In this document: in pieces, positions 5,766-6,763 of the stretch
How the letters are laid out: every line of letters begins with the position of its first letter
Numbering within the stretch: the stretch's first letter is position 1
Source of the DNA: Candidatus Chlorohelix allophototropha
Lineage (GTDB): Bacteria > Chloroflexota > Chloroflexia > Chloroheliales > Chloroheliaceae
Direction: 5' to 3'
DNA length: 64,000 nt
Assembly (NCBI RefSeq): GCF_030389965.1
Contig: NZ_CP128400.1
Location: 1,550,001 to 1,614,000, forward strand
Program-made: the position numbers and the translations under genes
The notes under the pieces: model-generated
Databases searched by the model: none
Seen by the model: the letters and a program-made list of their open reading frames with translations, nothing else
What the model was told of the DNA's origin: nothing

Positions 5766-5897
5766 TTAGAGGTTACAGGGCAGTTGCAAGAAACGTTTTT
5801 AAGCCAATAACCTGTTGCACTGACCGGGAGGAGTAAGAGAGAGGGTGAGTTCAAGGGGACACCCTTTCCGAACTTGCAACAGCCCTGATTAGAGGTT
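5766..5897. mobile_element. 114-bp MITE-like element with 16-bp terminal inverted repeats and 9-bp target duplication
   Basis: Element body 5775-5888. The left end ACAGGGCAGTTGCAAG and the inverse of the right end TCAGGGCTGTTGCAAG agree at 14 of 16 positions. Both sides carry the direct repeat TTAGAGGTT (5766-5774 and 5889-5897). The interior has no ORF and contains a small hairpin (AAGGG/CCCTT, near 5853-5866). The intact target duplication indicates insertion by transposition, presumably using a transposase supplied elsewhere. It lies directly upstream of the -35 of the PHP gene promoter. Confidence 0.85.
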
Positions 5898-5905
5898 TGC
5901 GATAA

Positions 5906-5935
5906 TTGCCCGCTTTTAACAGAGTAGTGTATAAT
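5906..5935 (+). promoter_or_regulatory. Sigma70-type promoter of the PHP-glycosyltransferase pair
   Basis: TTGCCC (5906-5911), 18-bp spacer, perfect TATAAT (5930-5935). The -35 begins eight bases after the target duplication of the MITE, so the insertion replaced whatever upstream sequence was there before. Confidence 0.55.
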
Positions 5936-5980: not shown

Positions 5981-6763
5981 TTGAGCGGAGATAATATGGA
6001 GCAAATTGTAGCGCAACCCATTAGGGGTAAAGCTGATTTGCACCTCCACACCACTGCCAGCGATGGCATGGGAACTGTCGAAGAAGTGCTTGAATACGTT
6101 GAACATAAAACAGATCTCGATGTGATAGCCATTACAGATCATGATGAGATAAGGGGAGCTTGGGCAGCGCGAGAACTGGCTGCCAAAAATAACTACCGCT
6201 TCAAGATTTTAATGGGTCAGGAAATTACCAGCCGTCACGGGCATATCTTGATTTACGGCGTAGAAGAACCTTTTAAAATGTTCAAATCGCTGGAAGCGAC
6301 GGTAGAATGGGCGCATGAGCGCGGGGGAGTGGTTATTATCCCTCATCCCCTCAGCTATATGACTCTCAGTGTAGGCGAAAACCAGCTTCGTAAACTTTTC
6401 AACAAACAATTGCACGTTGATGGAATAGAAATAATCAATCCCAGTATTGCCGGGTATGTACGTCGCCACGAGGTAAAAACCATTAATGATGAAGAATGGG
6501 ATTTGGCGCAAATCGGCAGTAGCGATGCCCATTTTCCGCATCATATCGCCACCGCCTATACTTCTTTTCCGGGTAAAACAATTGAGGAGTTGCTTCAAGC
6601 TATCAAGGATCGTACCACTCAACCTCATGGGCGTTATCTGACTATCAAAGAACAGTTACAGGGCGCAGGTAAACAAAATCTGAGAAGTCTGGTTATCCTA
6701 CCCGCTGACAAAATGCGCAGAGCTATTGCTACCGTCTCTCGGCGATTGCCTAACAATAAGTAA
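5981..6763 (+). CDS. PHP domain metal-dependent phosphoesterase
   Basis: 260 residues with the four PHP motifs: the HLHTTASDG metal site at the N terminus, ITDHDEIRG, the central HPLS histidine, and the C-terminal SDAHFPHHI. Members hydrolyse phosphoesters such as nucleotides or sugar phosphates with a trinuclear metal centre. The start is ambiguous: TTG at 5981 has AAAGGA eight bases upstream, while ATG at 5996 has GGAG five bases upstream; the longer form is listed. The glycosyltransferase gene follows after 20 bases, so the pair is co-transcribed and may share a glycolipid or sugar-phosphate role, which is inference. Confidence 0.9.
   Translation: MSGDNMEQIVAQPIRGKADLHLHTTASDGMGTVEEVLEYVEHKTDLDVIAITDHDEIRGAWAARELAAKNNYRFKILMGQEITSRHGHILIYGVEEPFKMFKSLEATVEWAHERGGVVIIPHPLSYMTLSVGENQLRKLFNKQLHVDGIEIINPSIAGYVRRHEVKTINDEEWDLAQIGSSDAHFPHHIATAYTSFPGKTIEELLQAIKDRTTQPHGRYLTIKEQLQGAGKQNLRSLVILPADKMRRAIATVSRRLPNNK

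Follow-up and report, generated by a model that had tools for sequence, protein, structure and literature searches.

A 112-bp non-coding element upstream of a PHP-domain hydrolase gene in 'Candidatus Chlorohelix allophototropha' L227-S17 is a non-autonomous miniature transposon (MITE), very probably moved in trans by a DDE transposase of the ISAs1 family. The element is real and of an ordinary kind; the family to which it belongs is itself undescribed. It was studied within a window, the whole stretch of 64,000 nucleotides analysed here (G000:C2:1550001-1614000), in a host genome of 6,086,194 bases on five contigs; the closed genome of this strain has been described with contigs that include 2.96, 2.45, 0.375 and 0.241 Mb (PMC10972752).

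Structure and surroundings of the element

As the original prediction had claimed, a short element with matching terminal repeats lies between two copies of TTAGAGGTT. The features of the region, with the evidence for each in brackets, are as follows.

5766..5774, no strand: left target-site duplication, TTAGAGGTT (sequence reading; target-duplication scan of copies)
5776..5887, plus strand: MITE, 112 bp, a shortened variant (own-genome copies; alignment of copies)
5776..5790, plus strand: left terminal repeat, CAGGGCAGTTGCAAG, an ISAs1-type end (end comparisons)
5835..5871, plus strand: GC-rich core module, common to a second MITE family with different ends (own-genome matches)
5873..5887, minus strand: right terminal repeat, CTTGCAACAGCCCTG, reading CAGGGCTGTTGCAAG on the minus strand (end comparisons)
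5889..5897, no strand: right target-site duplication, TTAGAGGTT (sequence reading; target-duplication scan of copies)
5906..5935, plus strand: candidate sigma-70-type promoter of the PHP gene, TTGCCC-18-TATAAT, with TATAAT at 5930-5935 (consensus match only)
5997..6763, plus strand: PHP-domain metal-dependent hydrolase gene (ATG at 5997 after GCGGAG; reading frame open from a TTG at 5981)

The 15-bp terminal repeats, CAGGGC[A/T]GTTGCAAG, match at 14 of 15 positions, and a single spare A stands between each copy of TTAGAGGTT and the element end; the 114 bp and 14/16 matches given originally are correct if these flanking A residues are counted, while our own bounds are 112 bp and 14/15. No ORF of at least 60 aa overlaps 5776-5887, in agreement with the claim that the element has no coding capacity. 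Its GC content is 52%, against 32% in the flanks, and alignment of copies indicates that, compared with a roughly 145-bp element, the GC-rich core of the window copy is ∼34 bp shorter. At a site free of the insertion, one copy of TTAGAGGTT would be expected to run directly into TGCGATAATTGCCC.

A duplication of just 9 bp raises the question of whether inverted and direct repeats could have fallen into this arrangement by chance. Direct repeats of an exact 9-mer, spaced 69-320 bp and enclosing ends that match at 13 or more of 15 positions, however, occur once in the real window and in none of 40 order-1 resampled windows; this result and the roughly 20 homologous copies described below already refute chance, whose probability we regard as negligible.

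The element separates two divergent genes, a 185-aa ORF (minus strand) and the PHP gene (plus strand), whose product contains a CehA/McbA-like PHP domain (76.6 bits, slightly short of the cut-off, which is 80). It had been said to abut the -35 of the PHP gene promoter, which is right as to proximity and slightly generous as to distance: the best inferred -35 (TTGCCC at 5906) lies 8 bp from the target duplication, with the element 18 bp away, and sigma-70-like sites are no commoner here than expected by chance (2 found vs. 1.3 expected). By its position, a regulatory effect of the element on the PHP gene is possible.

Related copies in the host genome

Other copies were to be sought by BLAST in the same genome, and the lack of any second copy or related IS ends had been named as grounds for rejecting the prediction. 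Searched with the 132 bp that include the duplications, the genome returned 13 long relatives along with numerous matches to the core alone, so that these grounds fall away. A profile built from 18 copies recovered further copies, and scanning of the fetched loci for paired ends gave at least 22 plausible elements of 101-227 bp; the end pattern itself occurs 34 times in forward and 36 times in reverse orientation (control pattern, 7 and 0). Target duplications of 9-13 bp, mostly 10 bp, are significant at 18 of the 22 paired-end elements (scores within the highest ∼1% of a null from permuted flanks); in six elements they are perfect, flush 10-bp duplications (TTTTCTTAAT, GTAATGTAAT, CTGAAAGCTA, AATACTACAG, AACAATATTA and TAATTTCCAG), from which we infer that a 10-bp duplication adjoining CAGGG is the rule for the family. 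The window copy departs from this rule, with 9 bp and one spare base per side, and the duplication at L035 leaves two spare bases beside the element. The duplicated targets are AT-rich (31% GC). Most copies are ∼145 bp long; a second subclass of ∼227 bp (L034 and L035) combines these ends and 10-bp duplications with an unrelated interior, and thus shares only its ends with the other copies, as mobilisation in trans predicts.

In being shorter than 500 bp, non-coding, intergenic and multicopy, with terminal inverted repeats within the 4-30 bp range and direct repeats formed by the target duplication, the window element resembles known prokaryotic MITEs (PMC10969869), whereas these are typically AT-rich and the window element is richer in GC than its flanks. 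An alternative is that the repeats are REP-like or structured regulatory sequences (RNA hairpins or terminator-like elements) kept for their function rather than transposons. The potential to fold into a long hairpin (z -2.8 on one strand and -4.0 on the other) would suit such a role, as would the location of the copies: by a simple ORF-based estimate, 12 of 22 are flanked by divergent genes and not one by convergent genes. The hairpin, however, is mostly made up of the terminal repeats, the element has no match in Rfam, and the promoter-side bias of the 22 copies may reflect the choice of AT-rich targets; above all, 18 of the 22 copies have target duplications, which require transposition and make a purely functional repeat very improbable.

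The claim that transposition was recent was not supported. Identity of the other copies to the window copy is only ∼78-85%, and the perfect 9-bp duplication, which cannot date the event, speaks against a very old insertion but does not prove a recent one. Across the family, intact target duplications differ by few bases while the element copies differ by ∼15-20%; divergence of the elements probably preceded many of the insertions.

Elsewhere, no copy of the MITE was found at the DNA level in 60 relatives, only four of them from the same taxonomic family, and these same-family genomes gave only scattered one-mismatch matches and no MITE. The exact paired-end pattern had no match across 84,980 species, and a plasmid collection gave no match. 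A scan for CAGGGCWGTTGCAAGAAA gave 18 matches, none with a recognisable element or target duplication; the seven inspected closely were all in or near ordinary genes.

Probable parent transposase

A 10-bp duplication combined with a CAGGG start is a pairing that we took to be ISAs1-like, and it prompted a test for this family. Members of the ISAs1 family have inverted repeats of 14-22 bp starting with CAGGG and direct repeats of 10 bp (PMC11946415). PF13808, an ISAs1-associated domain, was found in 16 of 61 relatives, and among the PF13808 loci of class-level Chloroflexota relatives at least nine ISs combine perfect CAGGG ends with flush 10-bp duplications. The ends at L263, L264 and L275 read [C/T]AGGGCTGTTGCAAAG: CAGGGCTGTTGCAAAG at L264 and L275, agreeing with the MITE end through CAGGGCTGTTGCAA, and TAGGGCTGTTGCAAAG at both ends of L263, where agreement is one base shorter. 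The transposases of L263 and L264 score 220 and 200 bits against NCBIfam transpos_ISAs1 (NF033564). The original prediction had looked to the ends to name a parent, and the IS ends of relatives and the duplication length point to the ISAs1 family; with ∼20 related copies and duplications at 18 of 22, ISAs1-type ends in related bacteria also bear out its proposal of a miniature transposon moved in trans.

With ISAs1 insertion sequences (such as L263, L264, L275, L259 and L280 in Chloroflexota relatives; Frankia copies, PMC11946415), the element has in common CAGGG-starting inverted repeats and the 10-bp duplication, the latter flush in the MITE family and not in the window copy; it differs from them in having no transposase gene, and the common sequence is confined to the terminal ∼15 bp. 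At 112 bp, non-coding, and with no NF033564/PF13808 transposase, it is not an ISAs1 insertion sequence proper. Several observations count against an ISAs1 origin: the searches described below found no intact ISAs1 transposase in the host and only a relic of another subtype, identity of the ends extends over only ∼14 bp, and the window copy has a 9-bp duplication plus spacer in place of a flush 10-bp one. In prokaryotic type II MITEs, likeness to the parent is limited to the terminal repeats (PMC10969869); the window element differs from these in that its parent is apparently absent from the genome.

PF13808 has no matches in the host genome, and a tblastn-type search with the L263 transposase found no intact ISAs1 transposase there, only one relic, the sole ISAs1 trace found in this genome. 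The relic (C2:1670928-1671236; broader locus L286:1207-1626, G000:C2:1670817-1671236) is decayed and internally deleted; its C-terminal piece matches transpos_ISAs1 with E 9e-8, a score under the family cut-off, since no more than 38 residues are left. Its preserved left end, CAGGGGTTATGCG, is of another subtype, and it was set aside as a source of the MITEs. Ends common to an autonomous element of the same genome are usual for MITEs and not obligatory; here, no near-perfect CAGGGC end pair bracketing a transposase gene was found. Since no intact ISAs1 gene was found and the only relic is of another subtype, the CAGGGC family is apparently orphaned in its host.

The MITEs might instead belong to another resident IS family, of the IS4 superfamily or other. 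The genome has 56 PF01609 (DDE_Tnp_1) matches, some with duplications of similar length, and five IS240-type matches; transposases were examined by family, our inventory covering some of the families, and ends were read for multicopy groups. Yet the ends read for the PF01609 and PF13610 transposases include none like CAGGGC..GTTGCAAG, and no gene is bracketed by a near-perfect end pair, so that we consider another resident parent unlikely. Sharp ends beside L066, L070 and L094 were rejected as parental: they belong to class-B or other MITEs that IS4-type and IS3-type elements interrupt or adjoin.

We therefore retain an ISAs1-family transposase as the probable mover, on the basis of the ends and the duplication length. 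Such an enzyme would recognise CAGGGC[A/T]GTTGCAAG ends and duplicate ∼10 bp of AT-rich target, seen in the window copy as 9 bp and a spare A per side; insertion between the two divergent genes would have put the element in place of the DNA formerly upstream of the presumed promoter of the PHP gene. The source of the enzyme may have been lost from the lineage or never have been long resident, and the family would now be immobile in this host.

IS4-type elements were also seen in contact with repeats. One, at L067, L070 and L071 (G000:C2:2352505, C2:1984232 and C4:218170), has a 461-aa frame, CATGGTCGTCAATTTAAG ends and, on its flanks, direct repeats of 20 bp with the pattern GGG-N14-CCC (GGGCGTATTCAAATACGCCC, GGGCGGTTCGCGAACCGCCC and GGGCACTGGTTTTAGCACCC), longer than is usual for IS4; at L070 it splits a class-B CAGGGC MITE. 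Others, at L076 (G000:C2:1790717) and L073 (G000:C2:1792027), with 444- and 519-aa frames and CATAGG ends, lie within GC-rich repeats at GGG...CCC palindromes, which suggests that these repeats act as landing sites.

A core shared between two MITE families

The sole unusual feature is the presence of one core in two end systems. The 37 bp at 5835-5871 match, at ∼95%, a second interspersed repeat (L015-L017), part of a MITE-like family of ∼157 bp whose complete copies measure ∼155-167 bp, have GTAACTATTCA ends and are flanked by 8-bp repeats (ATTGCTTT at L015, AAACTAAC at L017, GAATAATT at L021 and AAATACCC at L030); its copies in G000:C2 are L015, L017, L021, L030 and L006:1215-1369. GTAA ends with 8-bp duplications presumably fit IS66, the candidate for this second family. 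Core-only matches cluster at 1.7-2.4 Mb of C2, some in arrays spaced ∼100 bp (C2:2231330-2231705 and 2268422-2268793).

Nested insertion, recombination between repeats or an independently mobile core may account for the sharing. These MITEs could be modular or chimeric, with a core mobilised within both ISAs1-type ends (CAGGGC, 10-bp duplication) and IS66-like GTAACTATTCA ends (8-bp duplication), and so jumping between transposase systems, a tentative reading that we hold to be plausible but somewhat short of probable.

These results name a probable parent family for an undescribed MITE family, seemingly an orphan in its host, which is the one Chloroflexota phototroph in culture to have a type I reaction centre. 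The core common to two MITE families offers a test case for how MITEs acquire their interiors and, as the copies lie largely between divergent genes, they may have changed promoters in this genome.
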